DNA from: Gemmatimonadetes bacterium bin94
GTDB lineage: Bacteria; Gemmatimonadota; Gemmatimonadetes; Longimicrobiales; Gaopeijiaceae
Assembly: GCA_002238865.1 (NCBI GenBank)
Contig: MPNE01000014.1
Coordinates: 1 to 64,000 of the forward strand
Direction: 5' to 3'
DNA length: 64,000 nt
Shown: positions 17,987 through 60,133 of the stretch, in pieces
Layout: each line of letters starts with the position of its first letter
Position numbering within the stretch: position 1 is the first letter of the stretch
The notes under the pieces: model-generated
What the model was told of the DNA's origin: nothing
The model's input: the letters and a program-made list of their open reading frames with translations, nothing else
The model's database searches: none
Made by a program: the position numbers and the translations under genes

Positions 17987-18155
17987 GGAGCCGGGTCTGG
18001 TCGGACGGTGGGGTTGGATGCCGGGAGCGGAGACAGCTTGACTACTATGGCCGTTGCACGCAATCAGACCTTGATCACGGTGGCCCCGCGCCCGCCGGAC
18101 CCGCAGATTGGCACGGCGAGAAGCAAGTGCTTCAACCCGGCACCACGAGGACGAG
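17987..18155. promoter_or_regulatory. Divergent intergenic region
   Basis: This 169-base gap lies between the divergent MFS and alpha-hydroxy-acid dehydrogenase genes and should contain both promoters. Around 18035-18055 (GCTTGACTACTATGG) there is a TTGACT that could be a -35 box for the plus-strand gene. No good -10 follows at standard spacing. Confidence 0.25.
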
Positions 18156-19427
18156 ATGGCACTCGACCCCAACACCCCCGTCCACCGCCGCCACTTTCTG
18201 CGCTGGCTCGCAGCCAGCCCCCTTCTTGCCACCCTGCCCGGCTGTGAACCAGCCGGCTCCCGCTCCGGCGCGAGCGGCGACGCCCCCCCGGCACCCGGCC
18301 AGGTCCCCGGCACCGGCGGCCGGCGCCCCTCCCTCGACGACCTCGCCACGACCGCCGCCGACGCCCTCGACGTCTTCGACATGGAGAAAGTGGCCGAGAC
18401 CACCGTCCCGACTGCCCATTTCGGATACATCCAGACCGGCGTCGACGGCGAGGAGACCCAGCGCAACAACCGCGCGGCCCTTGAGGCCATGTACATCCGG
18501 GCACGCCGGCTGGTAGATGTCAGCCGCCTGGACACGCGCGTCACCCTTTTCGGGCGTGAGTGGCCGTCGCCGGTCATCGTGGCGCCGTGCGGAAGCCAGC
18601 GCGGATTCCACGACGAGGGCGAGCTGGCCACGGCACGCGCCGCGCAGGCACGGAATCACCTGCAGGTTCTCTCGTCGGTAAGCTCCACGGGGGTGGAAGA
18701 GGTCAACGAGGCCCGTGGCGAGCCCGTCTGGTATCAGCTGTACGCCACCTCGAACTGGGCGGTCACGGAAGCGGTCGTCAAACGGGTTCGGGAAGCCGGC
18801 TGCCCTGTGATCGTGCTCACCGTGGATCTGCCCGGCGGGAGCAACCGCCTCACTCTGGAGCGCTGGCGGCGCGTGGACGACCGCGACTGCCGCAGCTGCC
18901 ACCGTCCGCGCGGCGAGGCGCCATCGGTCAAGCCGATGTACCAGGGGACCGACTACAGCAGCTCCGACTTCCGGTCGCCCGGCATGACCTGGGACTTCAT
19001 CGGGCGACTGCGCGACATCACCGACCAGAAGATCGTGGTGAAGGGGCTGGTGACGCGCGAGGACGCCGCGCTCGCTCTGCAGAACGGCGTGGACGCGGTC
19101 TGGGTCTCGAACCATGGAGGCCGGGCGGAGGGCAGCGGGCGTGCAACCATTGACGCACTTCCCGAGATCGTGACAGCAGTGGACGGTCGTGTCCCCGTCA
19201 TCGTGGACGGCGGCTTTCGGCGCGGAAGCGACATCTTCAAGGGGATCGCCCGGGGCGCCGACGCGGTGGCCGTGGGACGGCCCTACCTGTGGGGCCTGGG
19301 CGCCTTCGGCCAGGCCGGCGTCGAACGTGTGCTCGAGATTCTGCGCAACGAGCTGGCTATCACGATGCGGCTTGCGGGCGCGCCGTCGCTGGCGAGCATC
19401 GGCCGGTCCTCGGTGGGGAGCGGGTAG
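18156..19427 (+). CDS. FMN-dependent alpha-hydroxy-acid dehydrogenase, Tat lipoprotein
   Basis: From ATG 18156 (GAGGACGAG upstream) the protein has 423 residues. The N-terminus carries a Tat-like RRHFLRWLA followed by a lipobox-like LATLPGC, so the folded flavoprotein is probably exported and lipid-anchored. The TIM-barrel enzyme has the catalytic SNHGGR with conserved ATIDALPE downstream, and the phosphate-binding VDGGFRRGSDIFK. The segment between them reads AEGSGR where lactate/glycolate oxidases usually have QLDGAP. The family oxidises L-lactate, mandelate or glycolate. A lut operon lies 11 kb away but no direct link is visible. Confidence 0.85.
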   Translation: MALDPNTPVHRRHFLRWLAASPLLATLPGCEPAGSRSGASGDAPPAPGQVPGTGGRRPSLDDLATTAADALDVFDMEKVAETTVPTAHFGYIQTGVDGEETQRNNRAALEAMYIRARRLVDVSRLDTRVTLFGREWPSPVIVAPCGSQRGFHDEGELATARAAQARNHLQVLSSVSSTGVEEVNEARGEPVWYQLYATSNWAVTEAVVKRVREAGCPVIVLTVDLPGGSNRLTLERWRRVDDRDCRSCHRPRGEAPSVKPMYQGTDYSSSDFRSPGMTWDFIGRLRDITDQKIVVKGLVTREDAALALQNGVDAVWVSNHGGRAEGSGRATIDALPEIVTAVDGRVPVIVDGGFRRGSDIFKGIARGADAVAVGRPYLWGLGAFGQAGVERVLEILRNELAITMRLAGAPSLASIGRSSVGSG

Positions 19428-19838: not shown

Positions 19839-20310
19839 CATCGGCCCCGCAGCGGGGGCGGCTCTCCTCCTCACCCTTGGCTGCGCCGCGTGCGCCGGGG
19901 GCGGGGCGAGCACGGCCGGCGCTCCTCCGACACCCGACCCGGACGGCTACATCACCACCCGGAGCGGCCTCAGGTACAGGGTCATCAGCCAGGCGGCCGG
20001 TCCGGGACCCACCGCGGGCGACCGGGTGATCGTCCACTACAGGTGCGAACTCGAGGACGGCACCGTGGTCGACTCGTCGTACGACCGCGGCGCGCCCGAC
20101 GTCGTCGTGATTCGCGACCTGATCCCCGGCTTCCGCGAGGCCCTGCAACTCATGTCGGTCGGCAGCCATTTCCAGGTCATTGTCCCTGGGCGACTCGGCT
20201 ACGGCCGGGAAGGCATCGACGGCGTGGTCGGTCCGAACGAGACCCTCTTCTTCGAAATCCAGCTCTTCCGGATCGTGGAGCGTCGCTCCCGGTCGTCCAC
20301 GGGCGGCTAG
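19825..20310 (+). CDS. FKBP-type peptidyl-prolyl isomerase lipoprotein
   Basis: The 161-residue protein has an N-terminal hydrophobic lipoprotein-like segment (GAALLLTLGCAACAGG) and a complete FKBP fold: SGLRYRVISQ, GDRVIVHYRCELEDGTVVDSSYDRG, LIPGFREALQLMSVG, RLGYGREG and GPNETLFFEIQLF. It catalyses proline isomerisation and should act in the periplasm. The only start before the signal is TTG 19825 inside the end of the shorter FKBP gene, which implies translational coupling. A 7-G run sits at this junction, so a sequencing indel could also affect the start. Confidence 0.8.
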   Translation: MWGGSIGPAAGAALLLTLGCAACAGGGASTAGAPPTPDPDGYITTRSGLRYRVISQAAGPGPTAGDRVIVHYRCELEDGTVVDSSYDRGAPDVVVIRDLIPGFREALQLMSVGSHFQVIVPGRLGYGREGIDGVVGPNETLFFEIQLFRIVERRSRSSTGG

Positions 20311-21803
20311 AAGACGCCCCGCAGCCACAGCACCACGAACGCTCCGTAGAACACCGACATCGCGACCAGCGCCGCCCGCCGCCACAGGGGCGGACGGATC
20401 TCCTCCGGCAGGAAGCGGGTGTTGATGTACAGCAGGTGCAGTGACGAGACCACGAAGACGATTCCGGCCATGTTGGCGCCCAGCTGCAGCAGGACGATCG
20501 GCTGCGCCAGCCCCAGCGCGATGACGCCCCATACCGCGAGCGCTCCAAGGACGGTGTAGTACACGACGCGTACATCGCCGCCGCGCCAGCGCCGCACCGT
20601 GCGCGACCCGGTCCACAGGATGTCCGTGATCGCGCGGGTCATCCCTTCGATGATGTCCAACTGGGTCTTGAAGAGCACCCACACGCCCATGAGCGCGATG
20701 GCTCCGCCGAATATGGCGCCCTCCCGGCTGGCCATTGCATTGGCCAGCGCGGCCGCGACCGAAAGGCCGCGGATGTCGGTGCCGCCCTCGATGAAGGTGA
20801 CGTAGAGCACGGCCGGAAGGACCATCCCGAGCATCGCGCCGATGAAGTAGACGCCCCACTGGTCGGCTCGTACGATGCGCCACCAGCCCTTCCAGCGAAC
20901 CATGGCTTCGGGGGTCGGATCGAAGGTGTAGCCGGTCGGCGCGAGCCGTTTGTGCGTTCCTCCCACGGCGGCCGGAATGTAGCCGACCCGTTCGCCCATT
21001 CCGTAGCCCTTGTCCCGGGCCCAGTTGGACAGGGTCAGGTTGATCACACCGCCCGCCCCGGAGTACGCCGCGAAGGCTCCGACCAGGAACCAGTCCACGC
21101 CCTCCGGAATGAAGCGGAAGGAGCCCGTCCCGGTGTCGAAGCCGACCAGCCCCGCGCCCGCGGCCACCCAGGTGTCGGCTGAGACGAAGGTCGCGGCCAG
21201 AATCAGGAAGCCGCCGATGATCGCCGCCACCAGCACCCAGTTGAGCAGCTCCAGGGTGCGCTCGATACGCTTGCCGAAAAGCAGGATGCCCACGCACAGG
21301 GCGAAGGTGCCCACGCCGATCCAGTACACCAGCAGCCCCTGCTCCGGGCCCGCGAGTTCGCGGAAGAAGAGGAAGAAGACCGCCCCCGCGGCCGCGCCGG
21401 CCCACCCCGGCCATCCCACCTGCAGGAAATAGAGCGCGGCGTAGAACCACGCCCAGAACTGCGACCACCGCCCGGTGCGCATGAACCCGGTCACTACGGG
21501 TTCCCCCGTGGCCATTGTCCAGCGCATCAGTTCCGTGTTGAAGACCGTCTGCAGGAAAGCTGCGACCAGAGTCACCCAGAGCAGCACCAATCCGTACTGA
21601 ACGAACGCCGCCGGGCCCAGCAGGAACTCCCCGCTCCCGATCGAAGCGCCCAGGATGATGACGCCGGGGCCCACAACACCCATCCACGCCAGGCCCTTCG
21701 GCCTCGGCGGCGCGGGAAGCTCGGCCTTTTCGAAAGCCCTCAGTCCGGAACGAGCTTCGGGTGGCAGGTCTTCAACTGGATCCCGTCCTCTCTCCCGGCT
21801 CAC
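20307..21803 (-). CDS. Nramp-related (LeuT-fold) transporter lacking DPGN/MPH motifs
   Basis: The 498-residue protein has about 12 helices. The start is GTG 21803, which overlaps the upstream peptidase stop as GTGA. Its first helix reads GPGVIILGASIGSGEFLLGP, similar in outline to Nramp helix 1 but without the metal-binding DPGN. Helix 6 (FAAYSGAGGVINL) lacks the MPH motif. It is therefore related to Nramp metal carriers but probably not a standard Mn/Fe transporter. It seems co-transcribed with the S9 peptidase upstream, which could hint at uptake of peptide-derived solutes. Confidence 0.75.
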   Translation of the reverse strand: MSRERGRDPVEDLPPEARSGLRAFEKAELPAPPRPKGLAWMGVVGPGVIILGASIGSGEFLLGPAAFVQYGLVLLWVTLVAAFLQTVFNTELMRWTMATGEPVVTGFMRTGRWSQFWAWFYAALYFLQVGWPGWAGAAAGAVFFLFFRELAGPEQGLLVYWIGVGTFALCVGILLFGKRIERTLELLNWVLVAAIIGGFLILAATFVSADTWVAAGAGLVGFDTGTGSFRFIPEGVDWFLVGAFAAYSGAGGVINLTLSNWARDKGYGMGERVGYIPAAVGGTHKRLAPTGYTFDPTPEAMVRWKGWWRIVRADQWGVYFIGAMLGMVLPAVLYVTFIEGGTDIRGLSVAAALANAMASREGAIFGGAIALMGVWVLFKTQLDIIEGMTRAITDILWTGSRTVRRWRGGDVRVVYYTVLGALAVWGVIALGLAQPIVLLQLGANMAGIVFVVSSLHLLYINTRFLPEEIRPPLWRRAALVAMSVFYGAFVVLWLRGVF

Positions 21804-23890
21804 TGGCTCACCGGCCTCTTGCCGACCCAACGATCGTACCACTTGCGCATGTAGAGCTGGGTGCGCATGAAGTTGGACGGCTTGCTGCCCGTGCCGTGGT
21901 ACTCCTCGTTGAAGCGGATGATCGCGGTCGGCACCCCCTCCATCTTGAGCGCCTGGTAGTACTCCTCGGTCTGCGACATCGGGGTGCGCAGGTCGAGCTC
22001 GCCGGTCAGCAGCAGCGTCGGTGTCGTCACGTCGCCCACGTACATGAGCGAGGAGTGGCGCAGCCACTTGTCCGGGTTCTCCCAGGGCAGCTCACGGAAG
22101 CGCCGGTAGCCCCACATGGCCACGTCGGCCGTGCCCGCAAACGACATCCAGTTGATGACCGGACAGCGTACGGCGGCGGCGGCAAAGCGGTCGTCGTGGC
22201 CGATCACCCAGCTGGAGAGCGCGCCCCCGCCCGAGCAGCCGCCGACGTACATCCTGTCCGTGTCGATGTATCCCCGGCTCACGACCTCATCGACGCCGTA
22301 AAGCAGGTCGGCCAGGTCGCGCTCGCCCGGGTATCGATCGTCGATTGCGTTGCCGAAGTCCGTGCCATAGCCGGTTGAGCCGCGCGGATTGGTGTAGAGG
22401 ACCACGAAGTCGTTGGCGGCAAAGTTCTGGAACATCCAGTTGAAGCCCACGTTGTACATGCCGTGGGGTCCGCCGTGGATCTCCAGGATGAGCGGATAGC
22501 GCCGCGACGGGTCGAACCCCGGCGGCTTCACGATCCAGCCCTGCACCTGCGCACCCTCGGTGGAACCGTACCAGATCTCCTCCAGATCTCCCAGTGCTAC
22601 GCCGGCGATGACGTCGGCGTTGACGTCGGTCAGACGGTGGGGATCCGCGCCCGCCTGCAGTTCGTACCGAACCACCTCGCCGGGAGCCTGCGGGGCCGAG
22701 CGCACCCCGACCGCCGTGCCACCCCCCACCGAAGTGAGCGACAGCATCTGCTCGCCTTCGGTCAACTGCTCCAGAACACCGCCGGGGGTCGCGGAATAGA
22801 CGTTCGACGAGCCGCGGTCCTGTACCGCAAAGTAGAAACGGCTGCCGTCTTCGTCCCAAATGATCCCGCCGATGTCCCGGTCGAGCTCCGGCGCGACCAT
22901 CCTCATGCCGCTTCCGTCGATGCCCATGGTGTACAGCTCGCCCACATGGTAGGTCTGGGGAGACCAGTCATACCCGGTGAAGGCGATCGTCTGCCCATCG
23001 GGCGACACGACCGGACTCGTCCAGAGCCCTTTCCTGGAGGTGATCTCGCGGGTCTCGCCGGTCGCCACGTCCACCGCGTTGATCGCCGACTCGAAGTAGC
23101 GAAGGTCCGAATCCTCATGCATCAGCCCGTCGAAGACGATGGTCCGCCCGTCGGGAGTCCAGTCGTACCCCATTCCCCAATAGATCGCGATGAAGCGGGC
23201 GCCGACGTGCCACTCTCCGCTTGTGATCTGACGGGCCGTACCCCCGTTGGCCGGGACGACGAAGAGGTGCATGTAGGCCGGATCCGTGAAGCCCACGCGG
23301 TCGGCCCGGAAGTGCATGTTCTCCACGATGCGGGGCGTTTCGGTCCAGCTGGCTCCCCCGGGCGCGGCCGGCAGGTCGATCGACCAGTCGCTCGGCAGCT
23401 CGCCGGGCGTGTACATGGTGAAGGAGATCATCGACCCGTCGGGCGACCACATGGCGTTCATGGGCGTTTCCGGAACCCTCGTGATCTGCGAGACGGAGCC
23501 CTCCTCGTCCATCCAGCGCACGAACAACTGGGTGGCGCCGGACCCGTCCGGGGCGGCGAAGAGGATGCGAGTGCCGTCCGGCGACCAGCGCGCCGAGGAA
23601 CCGTCGATCAGGAACCGCTTGCGCGTCCCGTCCGCGTCCATCATCCAGAGGCCCGAATCCCACCTGTCCTCGACCTTGTTCACCCAGCTCCGGGTGTAGA
23701 CGATCCGGGTCCCGTCCGGCGAGATCTGCGGGTCGGCCACGCGCTCCCAGTCAAGGTAGCGATCGACGGTGAGCCGGGGGGCGTCGGCGGGGTCCTGGGC
23801 GGCGAGGGGGGTCGACGTCAGGGCTTGGGCGCTCAACACGAGCACGGCTGCCACCATCAGCGGTGGCCGGGGACGCATGTACTCTCTCAT
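21800..23890 (-). CDS. S9-family dipeptidyl aminopeptidase/acylaminoacyl-peptidase, exported
   Basis: The 696-residue protein starts at ATG 23890 (AAGGAG upstream) with a signal peptide ending TPLAAQ. The first two thirds form a TolB-like propeller with SPDGT blades. The C-terminal alpha/beta hydrolase holds the triad: Ser in YVGGCSGGGALS, Asp in LTGELDLRTP and His in FNEEYHGTGS. HGGPHGMYN forms the oxyanion region. Such enzymes cleave short peptides, often after proline. A clear paralogue lies at 51074-53122. The next gene overlaps its stop. Confidence 0.9.
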   Translation of the reverse strand: MREYMRPRPPLMVAAVLVLSAQALTSTPLAAQDPADAPRLTVDRYLDWERVADPQISPDGTRIVYTRSWVNKVEDRWDSGLWMMDADGTRKRFLIDGSSARWSPDGTRILFAAPDGSGATQLFVRWMDEEGSVSQITRVPETPMNAMWSPDGSMISFTMYTPGELPSDWSIDLPAAPGGASWTETPRIVENMHFRADRVGFTDPAYMHLFVVPANGGTARQITSGEWHVGARFIAIYWGMGYDWTPDGRTIVFDGLMHEDSDLRYFESAINAVDVATGETREITSRKGLWTSPVVSPDGQTIAFTGYDWSPQTYHVGELYTMGIDGSGMRMVAPELDRDIGGIIWDEDGSRFYFAVQDRGSSNVYSATPGGVLEQLTEGEQMLSLTSVGGGTAVGVRSAPQAPGEVVRYELQAGADPHRLTDVNADVIAGVALGDLEEIWYGSTEGAQVQGWIVKPPGFDPSRRYPLILEIHGGPHGMYNVGFNWMFQNFAANDFVVLYTNPRGSTGYGTDFGNAIDDRYPGERDLADLLYGVDEVVSRGYIDTDRMYVGGCSGGGALSSWVIGHDDRFAAAAVRCPVINWMSFAGTADVAMWGYRRFRELPWENPDKWLRHSSLMYVGDVTTPTLLLTGELDLRTPMSQTEEYYQALKMEGVPTAIIRFNEEYHGTGSKPSNFMRTQLYMRKWYDRWVGKRPVSQ

Positions 23891-24044: not shown

Positions 24045-24461
24045 ATGACAATCACAACTTCGCAGTCCCGGACCCTCATCGAGTCCGTCCTCGCGGGCTC
24101 GGAAGCCATCACCGCACTCGGCATCACCCTGGAAGATCTGGGTGAGGACACCGCCGTCCTCAAGATGCCCTGGCAACCCCACCTCACCCGGGGCGACGGC
24201 ACCATCTACCACGGCGGCCCCGTCGCGTCCCTGATCGACATCGCCGGCGACATGGTCGTTGCGGTTCGCGCCGGCGGCGGGGTCCCGACCATTTCGCTGC
24301 GTGTCGACTACCTGCGCCCGTCCACCGGTCCGCACCTGCTGGCCACGGGCCGGCTGCGCCGTTTCGGGCGTACCATCTCGGTATCGGATGTCGAGGTGCA
24401 CGACCACGAGGGCCGCCTCTGCGCCGTGGGTCGCGGGACCTACGCCTCGTTCGTGGGCTGA
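24045..24461 (+). CDS. PaaI-type hotdog thioesterase
   Basis: This 138-residue hotdog-fold protein has the PaaI signature GTIYHGGPVASLIDIAGDM in the middle and ends VGRGTYASFVG. These enzymes hydrolyse acyl-CoA thioesters, often clearing dead-end CoA esters. ATG 24045 is chosen because the fold starts there; the ribosome-binding site is weak. It heads a five-gene overlapping set that also contains an acyl-CoA ligase, so ligase and thioesterase could act on the same acyl group in opposite directions. Confidence 0.85.
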   Translation: MTITTSQSRTLIESVLAGSEAITALGITLEDLGEDTAVLKMPWQPHLTRGDGTIYHGGPVASLIDIAGDMVVAVRAGGGVPTISLRVDYLRPSTGPHLLATGRLRRFGRTISVSDVEVHDHEGRLCAVGRGTYASFVG

Positions 24462-24468
24462 CCCCCAG

Positions 24469-25479
24469 GTGAGAGCCGCGCTGTACGACCGCCACGGCAC
24501 CGTCGACGAACTCTACCTGCGCACCGTCCCCGTCCCCCGCCCCGACCCCGGCGAGGCCCTCGTCCGCATCCGCGCCTGCGCCCTGAACGGCTTCGACCCC
24601 ATGATGCTCGGCGGAACGACCGGACTGCGCGTCCCGCTCCCCATGATCCCGTGCGGGGACGCGGCCGGCGAGATCGCCGACTTCGGCCCGGGGACGGATC
24701 CGGTCGAATGGCACGCCGGCGATCGCGTCCTCCTCGACCCCGTTGTCCCGGGGCGCGGCATGATGGGCGAGAAGGCTCACGGAGCGGCAAGGGAATACGT
24801 TACGGTACCGATCGAGAACCTCATTCGCATACCGTCCGGTGTCTCGTTCGAACATGCCGCCGCCCTCCCGGTCGCCTATGGCACCGCCCTGCGCCTTGTG
24901 GAAGATCGTGCAAGAGTCAGGGCCGGTGAAACCGTGCTGATCCTGGGCGCCACCGGCGGTGTCGGCACCTGTTGCGTCCAGCTCTGCAAGCGCATCGGCG
25001 CCCGCGTGATCGCAACCGGCAGCGCGGAGTGGAAGCTGGAAAAACTGTCCGAGCTGGGTGCGGACCACGTCCTGTCGTCGCGCGACGGCGAATTGGTGCG
25101 GCCGGTGCGGAAGATCGCGGGCCGGCCCCGATACCATGACCCGAAGGCCGGCGGCGTGGACGTCGTCGTCAACTACATCGGCGGCGACACCTGGGCGGAC
25201 AGCCTGAAGACGCTGCGCTATCAGGGGCGAATGGTCACGTGCGGCGCGACGGCCGGATACGATCCGCCAACCGACATCCGCTACATCTGGAGCTTCGAAC
25301 AGACCATCATGGGGTCCGACGGGTGGACCCGCGAAGGGTTGGCGCGTCTGCTGCAGATGGTGGCCGGTGGCGAACTGGAGCCCGTCGTTCACGCTGCAAG
25401 ACCGCTTGCGCTGATCCGCGAGGCGATGGCGGAGCTTATCGCACGGCAGGTCTTCGGCAAGTCGGTACTGACGCTGTGA
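24469..25479 (+). CDS. MDR-family (quinone oxidoreductase-like) NADPH dehydrogenase
   Basis: The 336-residue protein starts at GTG 24469, seven bases after the thioesterase stop. It has the GroES-like N-terminal domain (EALVRIRACALNGFDPMML, GDAAGEIADFG) and a Rossmann domain with LILGATGGVGTCCVQL. The catalytic-zinc residues of alcohol dehydrogenases are not evident, which fits the quinone oxidoreductase / enoyl reductase branch. It probably reduces an enone or enoyl substrate. The stop overlaps the transporter start as GTGA. Confidence 0.85.
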   Translation: MRAALYDRHGTVDELYLRTVPVPRPDPGEALVRIRACALNGFDPMMLGGTTGLRVPLPMIPCGDAAGEIADFGPGTDPVEWHAGDRVLLDPVVPGRGMMGEKAHGAAREYVTVPIENLIRIPSGVSFEHAAALPVAYGTALRLVEDRARVRAGETVLILGATGGVGTCCVQLCKRIGARVIATGSAEWKLEKLSELGADHVLSSRDGELVRPVRKIAGRPRYHDPKAGGVDVVVNYIGGDTWADSLKTLRYQGRMVTCGATAGYDPPTDIRYIWSFEQTIMGSDGWTREGLARLLQMVAGGELEPVVHAARPLALIREAMAELIARQVFGKSVLTL

Positions 25480-26840
25480 GCGACGGTGGCGACCGCGTCC
25501 CCGTCAGCTATCCCATCGCCCGTCAGATTCCGGCAGATGTGCTCGACGGTGAGGCCCGGCGGCTGGCGACGATCGCCCGTGCGCCCTTGCACCGGCGCAT
25601 TGGCGGTTATGCGCGCCTCGCCGGACCGGGATTCATGGGCGCGGCGCTCACGCTCGGGGCGGGCACACTTACCTCGTCGATGCTGTCGGGCGCCACCTTC
25701 GGGTACCGCACCCTCTGGCTGATCTGGCTGGCGGCCGGGCTGGGCCTGTTCATGATGGCCGCCATGGCCCGCTTCACCTGCAAGGGTGGCTTCAGGGTCA
25801 TCCAGGTCCAGAATCGGCGTCATTCGTGGCTCGTCGGCTCCCTGATGACGGGATTGGTGGGGACTGCCGCGGTCGCCGTGATCTTCAACTTCGGCCAGGT
25901 CGCACTCGGCACCCATCTGATCGAGTCGCTTGCACCCTTCGTGGGCATCTCCTTTCCGGCGGAGTACAACTGGATCCTGTACGTGGCCGTCACCAGCTGG
26001 CTGATCCTGAGCTACGGGCGCCGTGGCGGGCTAGGCACGCGTCTGGTCGAAACGGTCATGAAGGGGGCGATCGCCCTCATGATTCTGGCCTTCGGCGCGG
26101 TCCTGCTCGTCGTGGGCGTGGATTGGGACGCGGCGGCGCGCGGCTTTTTCATCCCCTGGCTGCCGGGCGGCGGCGCGGGGCTGGACCTCTTCATCGCGTC
26201 CTCGGCGGCTGCGGTCGGCGTGATGGACTGGGTCTTCTTCCACTACGCCGGGCTGGCACGCGGATGGGGCAGGAATCACGAGTCCCTGGCGCGCTTCGAC
26301 CTTGTCGCCGGGCTGTTCCTGCCCTTTGTTCTCGTGAACTTCCTGGTCATCGGGGTGTTCGCGGCCACGCTCTTCCCGCAGGGGATCACGCCTGAGTCGG
26401 CACCCGAGCTCGCCGCGGCGCTCATGCCATTGCTTGGCCCGACCTGGTCGCAAATCCTCTTCTACGTGGGGTTCCTCGCGGTTCCGATCACGACCACCGT
26501 GGGCATGAGCCTGGCCGGCGCAATGGCCATTCACGAAGCCCTCGGATGGGAGCCGGACACGTCGTCGTGGCGCTGGAAGCTCACCGCGCTGCTCCCGCAG
26601 ATCGCCTTCCTGGCCGCGTGGAACGCGCGTCCGGTGTGGCTGGTCATCGCGATCGCCGCATTCCTGTCGCTCGCGAACAACGTGGTCGGCTGGTCCATGT
26701 ACCTGTTGCTCAATGACCGGGAGGTGCTGGGGCGCGACCGCGGCAAGTCGTACCTGTGGAACCTGGGGATCCTGCTGCAGGTCACCCTGCTGAACGCGAT
26801 CGCGATCGTATACGTCTTCAACCGGCTGGGGTGGTGGTGA
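25476..26840 (+). CDS. Nramp-like transporter lacking canonical metal motifs
   Basis: The 454-residue polytopic protein starts at GTG 25476, overlapping the MDR gene. Helix 1 reads AGPGFMGAALTLGAGTLTSS, where true Nramp carriers have DPGN. The helix 6 region (FIASSAAAVGVMDWVFFHYAG) has no MPH. Its genes on both sides handle acyl or carbonyl compounds, so it may import the organic substrate of this operon rather than a metal. That is inference from context only. Confidence 0.75.
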   Translation: MSDGGDRVPVSYPIARQIPADVLDGEARRLATIARAPLHRRIGGYARLAGPGFMGAALTLGAGTLTSSMLSGATFGYRTLWLIWLAAGLGLFMMAAMARFTCKGGFRVIQVQNRRHSWLVGSLMTGLVGTAAVAVIFNFGQVALGTHLIESLAPFVGISFPAEYNWILYVAVTSWLILSYGRRGGLGTRLVETVMKGAIALMILAFGAVLLVVGVDWDAAARGFFIPWLPGGGAGLDLFIASSAAAVGVMDWVFFHYAGLARGWGRNHESLARFDLVAGLFLPFVLVNFLVIGVFAATLFPQGITPESAPELAAALMPLLGPTWSQILFYVGFLAVPITTTVGMSLAGAMAIHEALGWEPDTSSWRWKLTALLPQIAFLAAWNARPVWLVIAIAAFLSLANNVVGWSMYLLLNDREVLGRDRGKSYLWNLGILLQVTLLNAIAIVYVFNRLGWW

Positions 26841-27091
26841 TGGACGCGGGCGTCACACGAACCCTCCAGCGCCTGCTGGAGCGTCCCATCGGGCCATGGT
26901 CGGGCCGCGTGTGGGGTCTGATTCTCAACCTGGCGGGCAATGCCATTGCCCTTTGGGGCGTCGCGTCGGTCATGCGAACAGGCGCCGGGTGGACCTGGAT
27001 CGTGATCGGCGGCGTGGGAACGGCTGTCTGCATCAGCGCGCTGGCCCTGCCGGCGCTGGAGAGCGAGGTGGAGCAGGAGGGGGACGAATGA
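26840..27091 (+). CDS. Small two-helix membrane protein next to the transporter
   Basis: The 83-residue protein starts with ATG 26840, one base overlapping the transporter stop (TGATG). It has two helices (VWGLILNLAGNAIALWGVASVM and WTWIVIGGVGTAVCISALAL) and an acidic tail (ESEVEQEGDE). Coupling on both sides suggests an accessory subunit of the transporter. No family is recognised. Confidence 0.7.
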   Translation: MDAGVTRTLQRLLERPIGPWSGRVWGLILNLAGNAIALWGVASVMRTGAGWTWIVIGGVGTAVCISALALPALESEVEQEGDE

Positions 27092-28677
27092 GCGTCGGGA
27101 CGGACGGAGGCCCCGACCCCCGCGACTTCAACCTCGGATACTGGCTCGGCGACGCCTGCGCCGCCTTCCCCGACCGCGTCGCGCTGATCGATCTCTCGCG
27201 TGCGATCCCCCGCGAAGTCACCTACGCCGAACTCGACGAGCGCATGGACCGGGTCGCCAATCTGCTGTCGGACGCGGGCATCGGAGTCGGCGACCGCTTC
27301 GCGCTGAGCGTCGGCAACCGCTTCGAATTCGTCGAAATCATGTTCGGCGCCATGCGCTGCGGTGCCGTCCCCGTCCCGCTGAACTACAAACTCGCCCACC
27401 CGTCCCTCGCCCACATCGTGGCCGACGCCGGCTGCCGGGCCGCGTTCGTCGAAACCGCGGTCTCGGAACGCTCGGCGGCGGTCGTCGAGCAGTTGGGGAT
27501 CGAGAGGAAATGGCAGGTCGGCGGCTTCGGTACGGGTCGGGAGCCGGCAAGCACCGGCTGGCTCGGCTACGAAGGTGCGCTTGCGAAGGCTTCGGCGGAC
27601 TTCGATCCCCCCCTTCTCGGCGCGAACCACCCCGCATTTCAGCCCTACACCTCCGGCTCCACCGGTAAGCCGAAGGGGGTCGTCCTGTCCCACGAGGGGC
27701 AGCTCTGGTGGGTGCGGTGTCTGCGGAAATACTGGCCCGCGGACCCCTCGGACCGGGCCCTCGCGGCGGTTCCACTCTACCACAAGAACGCAATGGCCGG
27801 AGCGGTCAAGCCGATGCTCCAGACGGGCGGATCGGTGGTCATTCTCCCCGGATTCGCCCCCGAGTCCTTCCTGCGGGCCCTGAGCGACCACCGCTGCACC
27901 CAGGTCGGCGCCGTGCCCGCGGTCTTCACGCTCCTCCTCGACCACATGGACCTCATCCGGGAGTTCGACTTCTCGGCGCTGCGCAGGGTCACGCTGGGGT
28001 CCGCGCCGGTTCAGCCGGAGCTGATGGACGCGGTCGAGCGTGCGTTCGGCGTCGATGTGGGCGAGAGCTACGGCCTCACGGAGGGCGGCCCCGTGATGCT
28101 CGGCCCGCCGACCGACGGTCGTCCGGTCCCGAGGGGCAGCTGCGGCGCCGCGTGGCCGGAGGGCGAAGTCATGCTTGTGCGGGACGGTGTCGAGAATCCG
28201 CGCTACGGGGAGCTCTGGGTGCGCAATCCCGGAGTCACGACCGGGTATCACAATCTCCCCGACGTCAACACGGCCCGCATTCGGGACGGCTGGCTCGCCA
28301 CGGGCGACCTCTTTCGTCGCGACGACGAGGGGTTCTTCCATTTCCAGGGCCGTACCGACGACATGTTCAACTCCGGAGGCGAGAACATCTATCCGAAAGA
28401 GGTGGAGAACCTCCTGCTGTCGCATCCGGACGTGCTGGACGCAGCGATCGTTCCCGTACCCCACGCAGTCAAGGGGGCGGTGCCGGCGGCGATGGTCGCG
28501 CTGGGTTCGGGGTCCACGCTGACCGCGGAGGCGCTGAAGACGTACACGCTGGAGCGGGGTCCGGCGTACGCGCACCCGAGGCACATCGTGCTGGTGGAAG
28601 AGATGCCCCTGACCGGCGTGGGGAAGGTGGATCGAGTGAGGGTTGCGGAGGCGGTGCGAAAGGTGATTTCCGGCTGA
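27088..28677 (+). CDS. AMP-forming acyl-CoA synthetase/ligase
   Basis: This 529-residue ANL-superfamily enzyme shows the P-loop-like YTSGSTGKPKGVVLSH, the A5-type ESYGLTEGG, the hinge region GWLATGDLFRRDDEGFFHFQGRTDDM and a terminal lysine in GVGKVDR. It activates a carboxylic acid to an acyl-AMP and then an acyl-CoA. The specific acid is not readable from the sequence. ATG 27088 has GGAGGGGG upstream and overlaps the preceding stop. It ends the operon that begins with the thioesterase. Confidence 0.9.
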   Translation: MSVGTDGGPDPRDFNLGYWLGDACAAFPDRVALIDLSRAIPREVTYAELDERMDRVANLLSDAGIGVGDRFALSVGNRFEFVEIMFGAMRCGAVPVPLNYKLAHPSLAHIVADAGCRAAFVETAVSERSAAVVEQLGIERKWQVGGFGTGREPASTGWLGYEGALAKASADFDPPLLGANHPAFQPYTSGSTGKPKGVVLSHEGQLWWVRCLRKYWPADPSDRALAAVPLYHKNAMAGAVKPMLQTGGSVVILPGFAPESFLRALSDHRCTQVGAVPAVFTLLLDHMDLIREFDFSALRRVTLGSAPVQPELMDAVERAFGVDVGESYGLTEGGPVMLGPPTDGRPVPRGSCGAAWPEGEVMLVRDGVENPRYGELWVRNPGVTTGYHNLPDVNTARIRDGWLATGDLFRRDDEGFFHFQGRTDDMFNSGGENIYPKEVENLLLSHPDVLDAAIVPVPHAVKGAVPAAMVALGSGSTLTAEALKTYTLERGPAYAHPRHIVLVEEMPLTGVGKVDRVRVAEAVRKVISG

Positions 28678-29911: not shown

Positions 29912-30521
29912 CCCCGGTTGAAGCCGTGCTGCCTGGCCCAACCAGCGCAATGCAACGCCCCGGCCCATGAACCCCCGTCACCACCGTGCGCCCGATGTCG
30001 GCGGACTTGCTTGGCCCCGAGTGCAGCCCGACACCGGCCGGCAAGCCGTCCTGCAACTCCGCCAACGCATCCTCCAGCCGAGCGAACACCCGCCCCTCCG
30101 GCACCCACACGATGTGAACCGGCGGCAACAACTGGGCCGTCCGCGTCCCCGTCGACGGCAGGACCAGGCTCCCCGACTCCGCCACTGCCCCCCAGGCCAC
30201 GGAGATCCCCGCTCCGGCGTGTGCGGCGGCGACGGCGGGCAGCCGCGGCCTCAAGTCGGCGGGCACGTCCGCGCCGATGGCCACTCCGGCGACTGCGGGG
30301 TCCAGCCCCCCCAGGAACCCCGTCAGCCATTCACTCGGCGAGCGTTCCGGATCGGCCTCCGCGACTTCGCCGCCGCTGCTTGTGAATCGTTTCACGAACC
30401 CCCCCACCGGGTCGTCCGCCGGTGGCGTCACGAGAGCCCCCGGATGGGGAAGCCGCTGCCGGCTCGCGGTCGCCTTCGCGACCCGGGCCAGAATCCGCTC
30501 GCGCGAGCTGTCCCCCCTCAT
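29904..30521 (-). CDS. lutC: LutC, lactate utilization LUD-domain protein
   Basis: The 205-residue protein has the LUD fold with GAVAESGSLVLPS and HIVWVPEGRVFARLED, matching LutC/YkgG. It is the third part of the LutABC complex that oxidises L-lactate to pyruvate. Its ATG at 30521 overlaps the lutB stop as ATGA, and GAGGG precedes it. The order lutA-lutB-lutC on the minus strand supports the call. Confidence 0.88.
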   Translation of the reverse strand: MRGDSSRERILARVAKATASRQRLPHPGALVTPPADDPVGGFVKRFTSSGGEVAEADPERSPSEWLTGFLGGLDPAVAGVAIGADVPADLRPRLPAVAAAHAGAGISVAWGAVAESGSLVLPSTGTRTAQLLPPVHIVWVPEGRVFARLEDALAELQDGLPAGVGLHSGPSKSADIGRTVVTGVHGPGRCIALVGPGSTASTGVT

Positions 30522-31909
30522 TCGATACCCTCGCGCCAAAGCTGCCGGAATGTTTGCCTGCTCGGCTTCGGCAGCGCCCGGTCGCGCGCCCATTCTCCGA
30601 GCATCGGCAGCGCCCGCGCCACTCCCGTCGCCCCCAGCCGGGACCCGATCCTGCCCGCCAGCCGATACAGCCCCGGCCGCGTGGCAACGCTCGCCAGTCC
30701 TGCCAGCGCCGCACGTTCCTTCCAGGGGGTGAGGCCTTCTTCCTGGGCCTCCTCACGCCAATGCAACAGCAATTCCGGAATCGGGATCCGCACCGGACAG
30801 GCATCGGTGCAGGCACCGCAGAGCGAAGACGCGAAGGGTAGCGGCATCGCCTCGTGGAGCCCCAGCAGTCCGGGGTCCAGCACCGACCCGATCGGCCCCG
30901 AGTAGACCCACCCGTACGCGTGACCCCCCGTCTGGCGGTACACGGGACACGCGTTCAGGCATGCGCCGCAGCGAACGCAACGGAGTGCCTCCCAGGCGTG
31001 CTCGTGGGCCAGAACATCCGTGCGGCCGTTGTCGACGAGCACGACGTGCACTTCCTCGGGGCCGTCGTCGTCCGGGTGCACCGCCGGTCCCTGAACGAGC
31101 GATACGAAGCACCCGATCGGCTGCCCGGTCGCGGCGCGCGCCGTCAGCTGAAGAAAGCCCGCCAGGTCGGTCATCCGCGGAAGCAGCTTCTCGATCCCCA
31201 CGACGGCGACATGCACACGGGGCAGCGACGTCGTGAGGCGAATGTTCCCCTCGTTTTCGATGAGGGCCACCGTGCCCGTCTCCGCAACGAGGAAATTGCC
31301 GCCCGTAATACCCATGTCCGCACGGATGAAGGCGTCGCGCAACACGAGCCGAGCAGCCTCCGCGAGGGTGTCCGGATCTCCGTCCGGCGCCGAGCCGAGC
31401 CGGTCGGCGAAGAGTCGCTGTACCTGTTGCAGGGACTTGTGTATGGCGGGTCCCAGAATGTGGCTGGGGGGTTCCTCCAGGAGCTGCAGGATGTATTCGC
31501 CAAGGTCCGTTTCGAAGACCTCGATCCCGGCATCTTCAAGCGCGAGATTCAGGTCGATCTCCTCCGTCGCCATGCTCTTGCCCTTGACCACGCTCCTGAC
31601 GGAGTGCTGTTTCGCAAGCCGCGTGACGATCTCCCGGGCTTCCGTCGCATCCGACGCCCAGTGCACCTGCGCGCCGTTGGCCTCGAGTCGAGCCTCGGCT
31701 TCGGTCAGATAGTGGTCCAGGTGCGTCAGGGTGTGGTTCTTCACCCCCTCGGCCCAGCGCCGCCAGGCGTCGGCGTCGATCTCCGAGTAGCCTTGTCGCC
31801 GCTTCTCGTCGAAGGCGATGGTCGCGCCCGTGACGGCTTCCCTGACCCCCGGCTCCTCCTTGATGATCTCGCGGGAGCGCGACGCGTAGTCCCTGATCTC
31901 GACGCGCAT
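30518..31909 (-). CDS. lutB: LutB, iron-sulfur lactate utilization protein
   Basis: This 463-residue protein combines an N-terminal LUD domain (KGKSMATEEI, GITGGNFLVAETGTVALIENEG) with a C-terminal ferredoxin-like part holding two cysteine clusters: CVRCGACLNACP and CGACTDACP. That is the LutB layout. It transfers electrons in L-lactate oxidation. ATG 31909 is one base past the lutA stop; longer starts would run through lutA. Confidence 0.92.
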   Translation of the reverse strand: MRVEIRDYASRSREIIKEEPGVREAVTGATIAFDEKRRQGYSEIDADAWRRWAEGVKNHTLTHLDHYLTEAEARLEANGAQVHWASDATEAREIVTRLAKQHSVRSVVKGKSMATEEIDLNLALEDAGIEVFETDLGEYILQLLEEPPSHILGPAIHKSLQQVQRLFADRLGSAPDGDPDTLAEAARLVLRDAFIRADMGITGGNFLVAETGTVALIENEGNIRLTTSLPRVHVAVVGIEKLLPRMTDLAGFLQLTARAATGQPIGCFVSLVQGPAVHPDDDGPEEVHVVLVDNGRTDVLAHEHAWEALRCVRCGACLNACPVYRQTGGHAYGWVYSGPIGSVLDPGLLGLHEAMPLPFASSLCGACTDACPVRIPIPELLLHWREEAQEEGLTPWKERAALAGLASVATRPGLYRLAGRIGSRLGATGVARALPMLGEWARDRALPKPSRQTFRQLWREGIE

Positions 31910-31910
31910 G

Positions 31911-32684
31911 TCAGCGGGCTCCGGCCGGCCGGTGGGCGCCGGTGACACCCCGCCACAGAGCGGTCGCCAGGTGCACGAACTCGACGCCCATGCCCCGGGC
32001 CCGGTTCCGCCCGTCCAGGTGCAGCATGCAGCCGCCGTCGCCCGAGACCACCCAGTCCAGCTCCGGCAGCGTCTCGAGCTTGCGGTCGGCCATCGCTGCG
32101 GAGACATCGGTCATCTTCACCGAAAAGAGGCCGCCGAAGCCGCAACACTCGTCCTGGGCCTCCCACGGAACGACCTCGGCCCCGGCCCCTTCGAGCAAAA
32201 CGGCAAGCTCGGTCTCCAGCCGCAGCTCCCGCAGTGCATGGCACCCCTGGTGGACGGCGACGCGACGGCCGGCGAGTCCGTCGCCGAGCTCGGTGACTCC
32301 CAGACGGTGATGGATGAACTCGGCCAGGTCGAAGGTCTTGTCAGCGAGCGCGGATGCCTGGGCGGCCCGTGCCCCGGCCCCGGCCTGTCCCGCGGCCCCG
32401 GCCGCGCCCCGCACGACGCGCGGGTAGAATTTCTTGACCATCGTCGCGCAGGAACCGCTGGGCAGCACGACGGCTTCCGAGTCGGCGAAGACGTCCATGG
32501 TGTGACGGGCCATGCGCATGGCGTCGCGGGACTTCCCCGCGTTGTAGGCCGGCTGGCCGCAGCAGGTCTGTCCGGGCGGAAAGGTCACATCGCACCCCAG
32601 GTGCCGCAGCAGGCGCACGGCGTCGGCGGCCGCGTCCGCGAAGTAATGGTCGGCCAGGCAGGTGACGAAGAGGGCGACGTTCAT
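31911..32684 (-). CDS. lutA: LutA, CCG-domain lactate utilization protein
   Basis: The 257-residue protein starts MNVALFVTCLADHYF and holds the two cysteine-rich CCG domains: QTCCGQPAYNAG and ECCGFGGLFSVK. These bind an unusual iron-sulfur centre in heterodisulfide-reductase-like subunits. It is the first gene of lutABC. An Ala/Gly-rich insert (about residues 115-135) is unusual for the family. I see no strong ribosome-binding site before ATG 32684. Confidence 0.9.
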   Translation of the reverse strand: MNVALFVTCLADHYFADAAADAVRLLRHLGCDVTFPPGQTCCGQPAYNAGKSRDAMRMARHTMDVFADSEAVVLPSGSCATMVKKFYPRVVRGAAGAAGQAGAGARAAQASALADKTFDLAEFIHHRLGVTELGDGLAGRRVAVHQGCHALRELRLETELAVLLEGAGAEVVPWEAQDECCGFGGLFSVKMTDVSAAMADRKLETLPELDWVVSGDGGCMLHLDGRNRARGMGVEFVHLATALWRGVTGAHRPAGAR

Positions 32685-32724
32685 GCGGGAAAGGTAGCCG
32701 CCCCACCCCACCGGGACAGCACCT

Positions 32725-33357
32725 TCATGCGGCAAGCACGACTCCGCCGGCGACGATGAGCGCGATCCCGATCGGCCCGGGCAGCCGCCCGCCGAAGGGC
32801 AGGGTCGTTTCCGCGACCATCACCGCCATGAGAAGTCCCATCCAGACCAGGTCGATCATGCCGACCACCAGCGCCAGGGCCATGAGAGCCCAGCAGCACC
32901 CGACACAGTGCAGGCCGTGCCCGAAGCCCAGCCGTGCGTGGCTGGCCGCACCCTCGCGCCAATGCGTGAGGAGGTAGCCGGCCGGCGACCGGCAGTGGGA
33001 CAGGCACGCGTCCTTCAAGCCGGTGAACTGGAAGAAACCGGCCAGGAACAGGGCCGCGGCCGAGAGGACCGGGGCATCGAGTCCGAAGGGAACAGGAACG
33101 CCCAGCGACAAAACGGACACTTGAACACCCGCCGCTGCCGCGCTGAACCCGGCCCACGCCGCCGCGTATCCCGCTGCGAAGGGCACGACGGAGGTGATGC
33201 CGCCGGTGACGGTGGTGGCTTCGGATTCCCGTTTGGCCGGACCGCCCGCGCGACCCTCCGCCACCCTCCCGAGAGCCCGCAGCCAGGGGAAGACAACCGG
33301 GGCCATCATGACGCCGGTCATGGCCAGCCACATCGCGAAGGCTGACACGTAGCTCAC
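32725..33357 (-). CDS. DUF2182 integral membrane protein
   Basis: The 210-residue protein has about five to six helices. It shows DUF2182 features: FAMWLAMTGVMMAPVVFP at the start, DACLSHCRSP and GLHCVGCCWALM in the middle. The Cys/His/Met-rich helices suggest metal, possibly copper, binding, and the family is annotated as predicted metal-binding. A DUF1326 gene lies 9 bases upstream, a known partnership. Confidence 0.85.
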   Translation of the reverse strand: MSYVSAFAMWLAMTGVMMAPVVFPWLRALGRVAEGRAGGPAKRESEATTVTGGITSVVPFAAGYAAAWAGFSAAAAGVQVSVLSLGVPVPFGLDAPVLSAAALFLAGFFQFTGLKDACLSHCRSPAGYLLTHWREGAASHARLGFGHGLHCVGCCWALMALALVVGMIDLVWMGLLMAVMVAETTLPFGGRLPGPIGIALIVAGGVVLAA

Positions 33358-39829: not shown

Positions 39830-41038
39830 ATGCTCCTCCAAACCCCCTTTCACCCCCGCACCGCCCCCCTCTGCCATCATCGCCGCTGGCGCAGCTGGTC
39901 CGGGTACGCGAGCGCGCTCAGCTACGAGCCCGGCCACGAGTACGAGTACTACGCGGTGCGCAGCGGGTCGGCGCTCTTCGACATCTCGCCGCTGCGCAAG
40001 TACGAGATCACCGGTCCCGACGCAGCCTGGCTGGTGGACCGGTTGGTCACGCGGAGCGCCTTCGCCTGTCCAGTGGGGAAAGTGCTCTACACTCCGTGGT
40101 GCGACGAGGCGGGCAAGATCATCGACGACGGGACGGTCCAGCGTCTGGACGCGGACTGCTTCCGCATCACGGCCGCCGACCCCTGTCTGCGCTGGTTGCA
40201 GGACTGTGCGCTCGGCATGGACGCCTCCGTGCGCGACATCACTCTCGATATCGCCGCGCTCGCGCTACAGGGCCCCACCTCGCGGGACATCCTGTCCCGG
40301 GTCGCAACCGGAGCAGCCATCGTCACGCTTCCCTTCTTCGCGCTCACGGAAGGGTTCATCGGCCCGGCCCCGGTCACGATCACCCGCACCGGCTACACCG
40401 GCGACCTGGGCTACGAGATCTGGGCGCGTCCCGAGCACGCGCTCCGGGTCTGGGACGCTCTTGTCGAGACGGGCCGCGGTTACGGACTCGCGCCAGCCGG
40501 GCTCGACGCGCTCGATGTCGCCCGCATCGAGGCCGGGCTGTTGCTCAAGGAGGTGGACTACGTGTCGAGTTGGACCGCCCTGATCGAGTCGCGAAAATCG
40601 TCCCCGTACGAGGCGGGGCTCGGATGGACGGTGCAGCCGCGCCCGGGCCGTGACTTTGTCGGCAGCAGGGCGCTCGAGCGGGAAGCCGCGAAGCCGTCCG
40701 ACTGGGCGCTGGCCGGGCTCGAGGTCGATTGGCCGCGCATCGAGGAGCGCTTCGCCGCCGTCGGGCTGCCCCCGCTGGTGGCTGGACGGGCCTCGCGTGA
40801 CGCGGCGCCGATCTTTGCCGCCGGGGCGCGCGCCGCCCCCAGGCAGGTCGGATACGCCACCAGTTCGACCTTTTCGCCCATCCTCAAGAAGTACATCGCC
40901 CTGGCCACCATCCGGCGCGGCTTCGCGAAGCCCGGCACCCGGGTCGACTTTGAACTGACGGTCGAGTTCGTGCGCCGTACGGTGTCCGCCACGGTGGTGG
41001 AGACCCCCTTCTTCGATCCGGCCCGGAAGCGGAGCTGA
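39830..41038 (+). CDS. GcvT-fold aminomethyltransferase (first of two)
   Basis: The 402-residue protein has the GcvT folate-binding domain with VRSGSALFDISPLRKYEITGP in pieces, RTGYTGDLGYEIW and ARIEAGLLL, and a C-terminal barrel. These proteins move a one-carbon unit from an N- or S-methyl compound to tetrahydrofolate. The first residues before WSGYASAL are poorly conserved and the true start may be slightly downstream. It is followed 6 bases later by an FAD oxidoreductase, so an oxidase/methyltransferase pair as in dimethylglycine or sarcosine breakdown is likely. Confidence 0.82.
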   Translation: MLLQTPFHPRTAPLCHHRRWRSWSGYASALSYEPGHEYEYYAVRSGSALFDISPLRKYEITGPDAAWLVDRLVTRSAFACPVGKVLYTPWCDEAGKIIDDGTVQRLDADCFRITAADPCLRWLQDCALGMDASVRDITLDIAALALQGPTSRDILSRVATGAAIVTLPFFALTEGFIGPAPVTITRTGYTGDLGYEIWARPEHALRVWDALVETGRGYGLAPAGLDALDVARIEAGLLLKEVDYVSSWTALIESRKSSPYEAGLGWTVQPRPGRDFVGSRALEREAAKPSDWALAGLEVDWPRIEERFAAVGLPPLVAGRASRDAAPIFAAGARAAPRQVGYATSSTFSPILKKYIALATIRRGFAKPGTRVDFELTVEFVRRTVSATVVETPFFDPARKRS

Positions 41039-44280: not shown

Positions 44281-44323
44281 AATCGTTCACAAATACCCCT
44301 CCACCACTCCAGGAGTGTCCAGA

Positions 44324-45490
44324 ATGACGTCCACCTTCGATATGGCCCTCATCCAGCGTGGAGCCCGGCTTCGTCGTTCGCCGTACTTCGATGCCACGCT
44401 GCGCGCCGGCTGCCGCAGCTATACCGTGTACAACCACATGTTCCTCCCCACCCGCTACGACGATCTGCACGCGGAATACGAGAAGCTGCTGACCGGGGTC
44501 ACGGTGTGGGACGTGAGCGTCGAGCGGCAGGTGGAGATCACCGGTCCGGACGCCTTCAGGTTCACGAACCTGCTCACGCCCCGGGACCTGTCGAAGTGCG
44601 CCGTCGGGCAGGGCAAGTACGTCGTCATCACCGCCGAGGACGGGGGCATCGTCAACGATCCGGTGCTGCTGCGGCTCGGCGAGAACCATTTCTGGCTGGC
44701 GCTGGCGGACAGTGACGTTCTGCTGTGGGCGAAGGGTGTGGCGCTCAACTCCGGCATGGATGTGACGATCCGCGAGCCCGATGTCTCACCGATGCAGGTT
44801 CAGGGTCCGAAGTCGAAGGAGGTGGTGCGGAGGCTCTTCGGCGACGAGGTGTCGGGACTCCGCTACTACTGGTTCCTGGAGACCGACCTGGAGGGCATCC
44901 CGGTGGTGGTGACGCGAACCGGGTGGAGCGGCGAGGTCGGCTACGAGATCTACCTGCGGGACGGCAGCCGTGGGGTAGAGCTCTGGGACCGCGTAATGGA
45001 TGCGGGACGAGACCTGGACATTTCCCCCACGGGCCCCTCGGACATCCGCCGAATCGAGGCGGGCATCCTCAACTACGGGATCGACATGACGCTGGACACC
45101 AACCCGTACGAAGTCGGATTGGGGTGGCAGGTGGATCACGACCAGGAGGGCGATTTCATCGGGCGCGACGCGCTCGCCCGCATTGCCTCGGAGGGACCCC
45201 GGCGCCGACTCGCCGGGGTGGAGATCGGCGGCGACCCACTGGACCTGAACATGACGCGGTGGCCGGTGGTTCCGGACGGCCGCGACCGCCAGGGCGGCCA
45301 GCGGATCGGCTTCGTCAGCTCGGCCGTGCATTCGCCGCGCCTGGGCAGGAACATCGGGTATGCGATGGTGCCGACGGCGTTCGCGGAACCGGGGACGCGG
45401 CTGCGCGTCACCACGCCGGATGGGGAGCGCGAGGCCAGGGTGGTGCCCAGGCCCTTCGTGGATCCCGACAAGGAAATCCCCAAGTCGTAG
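44324..45490 (+). CDS. GcvT-fold methyltransferase of DmdA type (DMSP demethylase-like)
   Basis: From ATG 44324 (AGGAG eight bases before) the protein has 388 residues. Several blocks fit what I know of DMSP demethylase DmdA: SYTVYNHMFLPTRYDD, TPRDLSKCAVGQGKY, ALADSDVLLWAKGVAL and VSPMQVQGPKSKEVV. TGWSGEVGYEIY has the DmdA-like Trp-Ser where glycine-cleavage T protein has Tyr-Thr. DmdA moves a methyl group from dimethylsulfoniopropionate to tetrahydrofolate. The substrate here may be DMSP or another methylated osmolyte. An alternative upstream ATG at 44315 is in frame. Confidence 0.75.
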   Translation: MTSTFDMALIQRGARLRRSPYFDATLRAGCRSYTVYNHMFLPTRYDDLHAEYEKLLTGVTVWDVSVERQVEITGPDAFRFTNLLTPRDLSKCAVGQGKYVVITAEDGGIVNDPVLLRLGENHFWLALADSDVLLWAKGVALNSGMDVTIREPDVSPMQVQGPKSKEVVRRLFGDEVSGLRYYWFLETDLEGIPVVVTRTGWSGEVGYEIYLRDGSRGVELWDRVMDAGRDLDISPTGPSDIRRIEAGILNYGIDMTLDTNPYEVGLGWQVDHDQEGDFIGRDALARIASEGPRRRLAGVEIGGDPLDLNMTRWPVVPDGRDRQGGQRIGFVSSAVHSPRLGRNIGYAMVPTAFAEPGTRLRVTTPDGEREARVVPRPFVDPDKEIPKS

Positions 45491-59852: not shown

Positions 59853-59854
59853 CT

Positions 59855-60133
59855 TCAACCTCCGGAAACGGCTTGCATGAAGAGGACGACGTCCCCGTCG
59901 GACACCGGACCGTCCCATCCGTCCATCCAGCGCGTGTTGGTCCCGTTGTGGAAGCAGAGGACATGCCGGCGAAGGTCGCCCGACTCGTCGAAGAGGTGGG
60001 GCTTCAGGCGGGGTTCCTGTTCGACCAGGTCGGCGAACACGCCGCGCAACGTCTCGCCGGACGCGGAAAACTCACGGACTCCGCCCGTCGCAGGCTCCAG
60101 GAGGGACGGGAGGGTCACGGTCACGGAAGGCAC
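59855..60133 (-). CDS. MoaD/ThiS-family sulfur-carrier-like protein
   Basis: GTG 60133 has AGGAG six bases before it, giving 92 residues. The beta-grasp fold ends VSDGDVVLFMQAVSGG, with the C-terminal Gly-Gly used for thiocarboxylation in MoaD and ThiS. No moaE, thiG or E1-like gene is nearby, so it may serve another sulfur transfer or a ubiquitin-like role. It lies between an Asp-box propeller gene and a membrane transporter and overlaps neither in coding sequence if TTG 59852 is the transporter start. Confidence 0.75.
   Translation of the reverse strand: MPSVTVTLPSLLEPATGGVREFSASGETLRGVFADLVEQEPRLKPHLFDESGDLRRHVLCFHNGTNTRWMDGWDGPVSDGDVVLFMQAVSGG

Follow-up and report, generated by a model that had tools for sequence, protein, structure and literature searches.

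Within PF01566, Slc11, an outgroup and NRMT were separated by Cellier (PMC9606685). The NRMT motif consists of DxxG in TM1 together with TxxA/T in TM6, and the TM1 Asp has been described as universally conserved in SLC11 (PMC8806188). Nramp-related groups devoid of metal and proton motifs, most of them entirely uncharacterized, are reported in a 2026 preprint (PMC12873925). Nramp-related proteins of this kind are diverse, and family names still call them divalent metal transporters. In Corynebacterium glutamicum, deletion of pxpT, the gene of an NRAMP-family protein, abolishes growth on 5-oxoproline (PMC13274462). YcsG (MntG), the Bacillus homologue of PxpT, was reported as a Mn importer, and a ycsG-like gene was noted together with urea-utilisation genes in Acinetobacter (PMC10448178). 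Whether Nramp relatives without metal motifs carry organic solutes is disputed for YcsG; a conserved operon with CoA enzymes ties such a protein in a concrete, testable way to the metabolism of a substrate, which would help to settle the question. A literature search for Nramp proteins in acyl-CoA operons returned nothing relevant.

The block analysed here is situated in the window (the whole 64,000-nucleotide stretch of DNA that was analysed), which belongs to a 4.42 Mb Gemmatimonadota genome. It comprises five plus-strand genes. As in PxpT and YcsG operons, an NRAMP-family protein is encoded with enzymes that would act on one organic acid. The pxpABC 5-oxoprolinase genes of those operons are not found among the annotated neighbours of the present transporter; instead, the block holds a CoA ligase, an MDR protein, a thioesterase and the gene of a two-helix partner.

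Genes of the block at positions 24045-28677 of the window
Feature	Position	Strand	Details
Hotdog (PaaI/YigI-like, TIGR00369) acyl-CoA thioesterase	24045..24461	+	138 aa; Pfam 4HBT, NCBIfam
MDR-superfamily reductase, enoyl-CoA/quinone-reductase-like	24469..25479	+	336 aa, GTG start; ADH_N/ADH_zinc_N
Nramp-fold transporter of an uncharacterised branch, TM1 GAGT, TM6 VMDW	25476..26840	+	454 aa, GTG start; PF01566
Two-helix membrane protein, proposed transporter partner	26840..27091	+	83 aa; no family in Pfam or NCBIfam
AMP-forming acyl-CoA ligase	27088..28677	+	529 aa; AMP-binding and AMP-binding_C

The initial annotation had described five overlapping or nearly touching genes, and this layout was borne out by coordinates, spacings and Pfam and NCBIfam families. 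The thioesterase and MDR genes are separated by 7 bp, the MDR and transporter genes overlap by 4 bp, the transporter gene and the gene of the 83-aa protein by 1 bp (TGATG), and the latter and the ligase gene by 4 bp (ATGA). The ligase matched the AMP-binding and AMP-binding_C domains of Pfam with 261.3 and 64.4 bits, and the usual motifs (YTSGSTGKPKG, TGDL and a C-terminal GK) are present. By inspection, the MDR protein is without the Cys at the usual catalytic-zinc position, where NGFD is found. All five genes are under purifying selection as judged by dN/dS, the ratio being about 0.1 in the transporter gene and about 0.2-0.3 in that of the small protein in comparisons with four loci. The recurrence of the block in other genomes (see below), together with this purifying selection, indicates that the layout is not due to chance. 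The assignment of a specific substrate from the enzyme families was attempted and dropped, as the ligase, MDR protein and thioesterase scored below the NCBIfam equivalog cut-offs among the matches listed. These three families are broad, so that their substrates cannot be read from sequence.

The transporter matched PF01566 with 119.7 bits (cut-off 29.8). Its ligand-free AlphaFold model (pLDDT 81.7, pTM 0.84) gave Nramps as the top structural matches, indicating an Nramp-type LeuT fold for the predicted model. The best match was the canonical Nramp/MntH DraNramp (PDB 6D91; Z 39.9, rmsd 2.5, 389 residues, 20% identity), followed by the Mg2+ transporter EleNRMT (PDB 7QIA; Z 37.0) and the YcsG model 9a52 (Z 34.0, 13% identity). 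Although the fold is shared, the DPGN and MPH metal motifs of the DraNramp type are absent. In TM1, DPGN aligns with G61-A62-G63-T64 (GAGT), which is invariant over eight orthologues. In TM6, Met-Pro-His is missing in either of two alignment registers that lie one residue apart, G248-V249-M250 (profile, MAFFT) or V249-M250-D251 (pairwise to DMT1); an invariant Asp251 is at or beside the His position in both. TM3 has no Asp or Glu within residues 118-148, and the proton-path Glu is thus missing. EleNRMT likewise falls outside the canonical Nramps and has lost the TM6 Met, but it has retained both the Asp of TM1 (DxxG) and the Glu of TM3. The lack of Nramp metal motifs asserted in the initial annotation was therefore confirmed, and the Mn/Fe-binding residues are gone, including even the Asp that EleNRMT retains.

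In a phylogenetic tree, the orthologues of the transporter formed one clade (support 1.0), apart from the canonical Nramp and from EleNRMT, which occupies a separate branch; the NRMT motif does not apply, the TM1 Asp being replaced by Gly61. Thus, the transporter is a PF01566 member that is neither a canonical Nramp nor an NRMT. Its nearest relatives in the tree, at about 30% identity, are a group with GSGT/GAGS/GGGS-type motifs from Acidobacteriota and others. This branch (L058-L071, L120, L122, L123) consists of Nramp-like proteins of Acidobacteriota and gammaproteobacteria. At a further locus (L073), genes resembling a Gfo/Idh-type oxidoreductase and a sulfatase were seen by inspection to adjoin an Nramp-like gene. 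The 'G-motif' groups of the 2026 preprint have a TM1 glycine motif and no metal or proton-path residues, as read from the group name and text, and the same combination is found here; the likeness is one of motif description and not of group placement, and the passages compared mention no partner protein (PMC12873925).

The substitution of DPGN by GAGT, the absence of MPH and the lack of a TM3 acid make metal transport by this protein unlikely, although the report of YcsG as a Mn importer implies that loss of the canonical ligands is not strict proof of lost metal transport. A metal importer was rejected as the main reading, every signature ligand being absent. An organic and probably carboxylic substrate would fit best, and the transporter may work like PxpT. 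The initial interpretation is supported in part: a non-metal carrier linked to CoA chemistry survived the checks of both gene content and metal residues.

To follow the block in other genomes, a pattern scan with the transporter was carried out over 84,980 genomes. It yielded 21 loci, 15 of them from Gemmatimonadota. The closest named matches were Gemmatimonadota assemblies, among them a Longimicrobiales bacterium chromosome with 91% identity in the transporter, and Candidatus Palauibacter (88-89%). The five-gene order of the window was found in 14 of the 15 Gemmatimonadota contigs; the remaining one (L032) is truncated by a contig end. It occurs in two families, that of the window and the Palauibacter type; some contigs in this comparison were the same ones met twice. 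Upstream of the block, the genus of the window has a gene for an S9 peptidase and another Nramp-like gene, whereas Na+/H+ antiporter-like genes, and not the S9 peptidase, were seen by inspection at the Palauibacter-type locus. Since the flanks differ while the block stays whole, the linkage is more than a shared neighbourhood. A strong transporter match was found in 10 of 22 relatives within the window's genus, over half of the genomes searched being without the transporter. In a third Gemmatimonadota family (L119), only the transporter and the small protein are present in the stretch seen, the CoA genes not being nearby. A search of a plasmid collection gave no match.

Outside Gemmatimonadota, transporter orthologues of 58-71% identity have a patchy distribution over six lineages: Thermoanaerobaculia (L041), Acidobacteriota (L042), Parvularculaceae (L043), Alphaproteobacteria (L044), Aminicenantes (L045) and Luminiphilus (L046). 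The gene order is transporter-small protein-thioesterase-MDR-ligase in L041, with the ligase cut by the contig end; transporter-small protein-beta-lactamase family-MDR-thioesterase-ligase-VOC in L043; and amidohydrolase-BAAT_C-transporter-small protein-VOC-MDR-thioesterase-ligase in L044. In Luminiphilus the set is rearranged across about 25 kb. Window proteins were also searched against six whole genomes from other lineages. The best MDR match lay beside the transporter or within 25 kb of it in four of the six (G059, G061, G062 and G064), with 258-386 bits vs 94-115 for the runner-up. The best ligase match was local to the transporter in G061, G062 and G064, and the best thioesterase match was co-located with it in G059, G061 and G062 and within 25 kb in G064. 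If the three best matches were placed at random, such co-location would arise with a chance of about 1e-7 per genome in G061, G062 and G064. The Acidobacteriota genome is fragmented; its best ligase fragment (69%) lies on the same 3.5 kb contig as the best thioesterase, and a different contig holds the best MDR match. The Aminicenantes genome (G063) has only the transporter and the small protein in the stretch seen, with no CoA genes nearby. Sampling of two proteobacterial classes, at about 290-370 genomes, and order-wide sampling around the genome from Parvularculaceae revealed no further orthologue, and sampling of the order of Luminiphilus gave more distant relatives only.

Thus, across phyla gene order is not conserved and gene content largely is. 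A strictly conserved order everywhere was rejected. The order conservation on which the initial annotation depended holds within Gemmatimonadota and fails between phyla, where the order is shuffled and the content mostly persists. The occurrence of the same gene set in several unrelated phyla suggests that the block is probably an uptake-and-processing system for an organic compound.

The 83-aa protein matched no known family in Pfam or NCBIfam profiles. It has two hydrophobic segments, near residues 24-45 and 52-73, and an alignment across phyla revealed the signature R-x-WGL-x-x-N-x-x-x-N ... [YW]-G ... P, in which R-x-WGL, the two Asn and the Pro are kept throughout and the Gly after the aromatic residue in most. 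Its gene is directly 3' of the transporter gene in every lineage but one; in Luminiphilus it is found about 2.6 kb upstream. Of the four other products of the block, the small protein is the one most faithfully linked to the transporter, a point absent from the initial annotation, and it accompanies the transporter even where the CoA genes are missing. This constancy is the strongest argument for one carrier, and the transporter and the 83-aa protein probably form a single two-part carrier. No relative of the small partner was detected with the GSGT/GAGS/GGGS-type Nramp-like proteins. Sodium:solute symporters with DUF485/DUF4212-type partners are symporters having a small two-helix subunit. 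They likewise combine a large carrier with an adjacent small two-helix protein; however, they belong to another carrier family, and the 83-aa protein matches no Pfam family. To our knowledge, the small partner would be the first subunit of an Nramp-fold carrier. A literature search on small symporter subunits returned nothing usable. As G063 and L119 retain the transporter and its partner without nearby CoA genes, the carrier may also act outside the CoA pathway.

On the evidence above we lean, by a little, towards the block being an uptake-and-processing unit in which a two-part carrier for an organic acid is joined to CoA enzymes. The Nramp-fold protein would work together with its two-helix partner as a single secondary carrier, and the small organic solute that they move would most likely be a carboxylic acid. 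The ligase, by its enzyme class, would convert the imported acid into its acyl-CoA; the zinc-less MDR protein might then reduce this acyl-CoA or a derivative, and the hotdog thioesterase could free CoA from the product or from stalled thioesters. The proteobacterial islands, those of Alphaproteobacteria and Luminiphilus, additionally hold outer-membrane TonB receptors, predicted secreted amidohydrolases, a VOC protein and an AraC-type regulator, along with CocE-type hydrolases in Luminiphilus; the TonB receptors of alpha- and gammaproteobacteria are 53% identical and the VOC proteins 45%. These genes form a catabolic context and suggest extracytoplasmic hydrolysis of an amide- or ester-linked acid, followed by import of the freed acid, the predicted secreted amidohydrolases (with the CocE-type enzymes in Luminiphilus) being the candidates for its release. 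Amidohydrolases and CocE hydrolases are common, and their proximity is thus weak evidence. We advance more tentatively the wider proposal that this separate Nramp branch is a two-component organic-acid carrier, whose two-helix subunit is obligate and represents a new family, and that the carrier, coupled to the ligase/MDR/thioesterase module, has passed between phyla as one unit.

In place of a simple acid, the carrier could alternatively import an amino acid, a dipeptide or another nitrogen compound, which would have to be deaminated or hydrolysed in the cytoplasm before the CoA enzymes act. The Nramps are part of the APC superfamily, amino-acid carriers such as AdiC (Z 26.9) and SLC7A10 (Z 25.5) are among the structural matches of the model, and glycine-rich TM1 motifs are found in APC amino-acid carriers. 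In several lineages the neighbouring genes encode Xaa-Pro-dipeptidase-like amidohydrolases, S15/S9 peptidases, a proline-racemase-family protein and threonine dehydrogenase. However, a common fold is uninformative on substrate, and the conserved core has no aminotransferase or deaminase, its conserved partners being the CoA enzymes. We consider a nitrogenous substrate rather unlikely. Export of the acid released by the thioesterase, in an operon serving reduction or detoxification and not uptake, would explain why one operon holds both a thioesterase and a ligase, a pairing that seems futile for pure catabolism, and LeuT-fold carriers can work in either direction. Such a role is improbable, as the Nramp carriers of known function in the bacterial literature compared are importers, and the TonB receptors and predicted secreted hydrolases of the proteobacterial islands point inward.

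A third alternative, that the protein still transports divalent metals and that its gene is grouped with metabolic ones because a metalloenzyme needs the metal, would agree with PF01566 membership, with the Mn import reported for YcsG of the oxoprolinase operon and with the ycsG-like gene beside Acinetobacter urea genes (PMC10448178). We consider it still less probable: the metal-binding motifs and the TM3 acid are absent, Gly61 takes the place of the Asp that has been called universal in SLC11 and that EleNRMT also has, and the MDR protein, without the usual zinc Cys on inspection, leaves no obvious metal client. That the five genes share no pathway and merely travel together by horizontal transfer, as their patchy spread over distant phyla and rearranged order might suggest, is very improbable, since shuffled order with kept content argues for functional selection and the best matches cluster in several unrelated genomes.

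The new role claimed initially for this transporter branch is partly anticipated by PxpT/YcsG, growth on 5-oxoproline being the precedent (PMC13274462). What is new here is this Nramp branch, its small partner and the CoA module. Luminiphilus syltensis NOR5-1B, a named isolate genome, holds the whole gene set, with the Nramp-like gene at about 83.3-84.7 kb of NZ_DS999411.1, and could open the way to genetics.

Several other genes of the window were recorded. A second, distant Nramp-like protein with TM1 GSGE (20307-22067, minus strand; the GTG at which the listed ORF begins probably lies upstream of the true start) adjoins the operon. It scored 193 bits against NCBIfam NF037982 ('Nramp family divalent metal transporter', cut-off 50) yet is without the metal motif, so that the family name may mislead. 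A protein resembling the YkvI-type membrane protein, with no Pfam match, is encoded at 58752-59918 (minus strand). A DmdA-like gene at 44315-45487 (plus strand; 402.2 bits vs a cut-off of 410 for the DMSP demethylase model) lies beside FAD oxidoreductases, and a second GcvT-type protein is encoded at 39830-41035. At 441-2519, a 3-hydroxyacyl-CoA/carnitine-dehydrogenase-like gene is divergent from the gene of a BKACE beta-keto acid cleavage enzyme. The DmdA-like gene (44.3 kb) and the BKACE/3HCDH pair (0.4-2.5 kb) suggested a connection to DMSP or carnitine, which was not adopted, as these genes are 16-24 kb off and, in the other lineages covered, were not seen next to the operon. A CocE/NonD hydrolase (2494-4419, plus strand) has 46% identity to one of the Luminiphilus cluster. 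Genes for an FMN-dependent (lactate-type) dehydrogenase and for LutA/LutB-type lactate utilisation (18144-19424 and 30521-32735) flank the operon.
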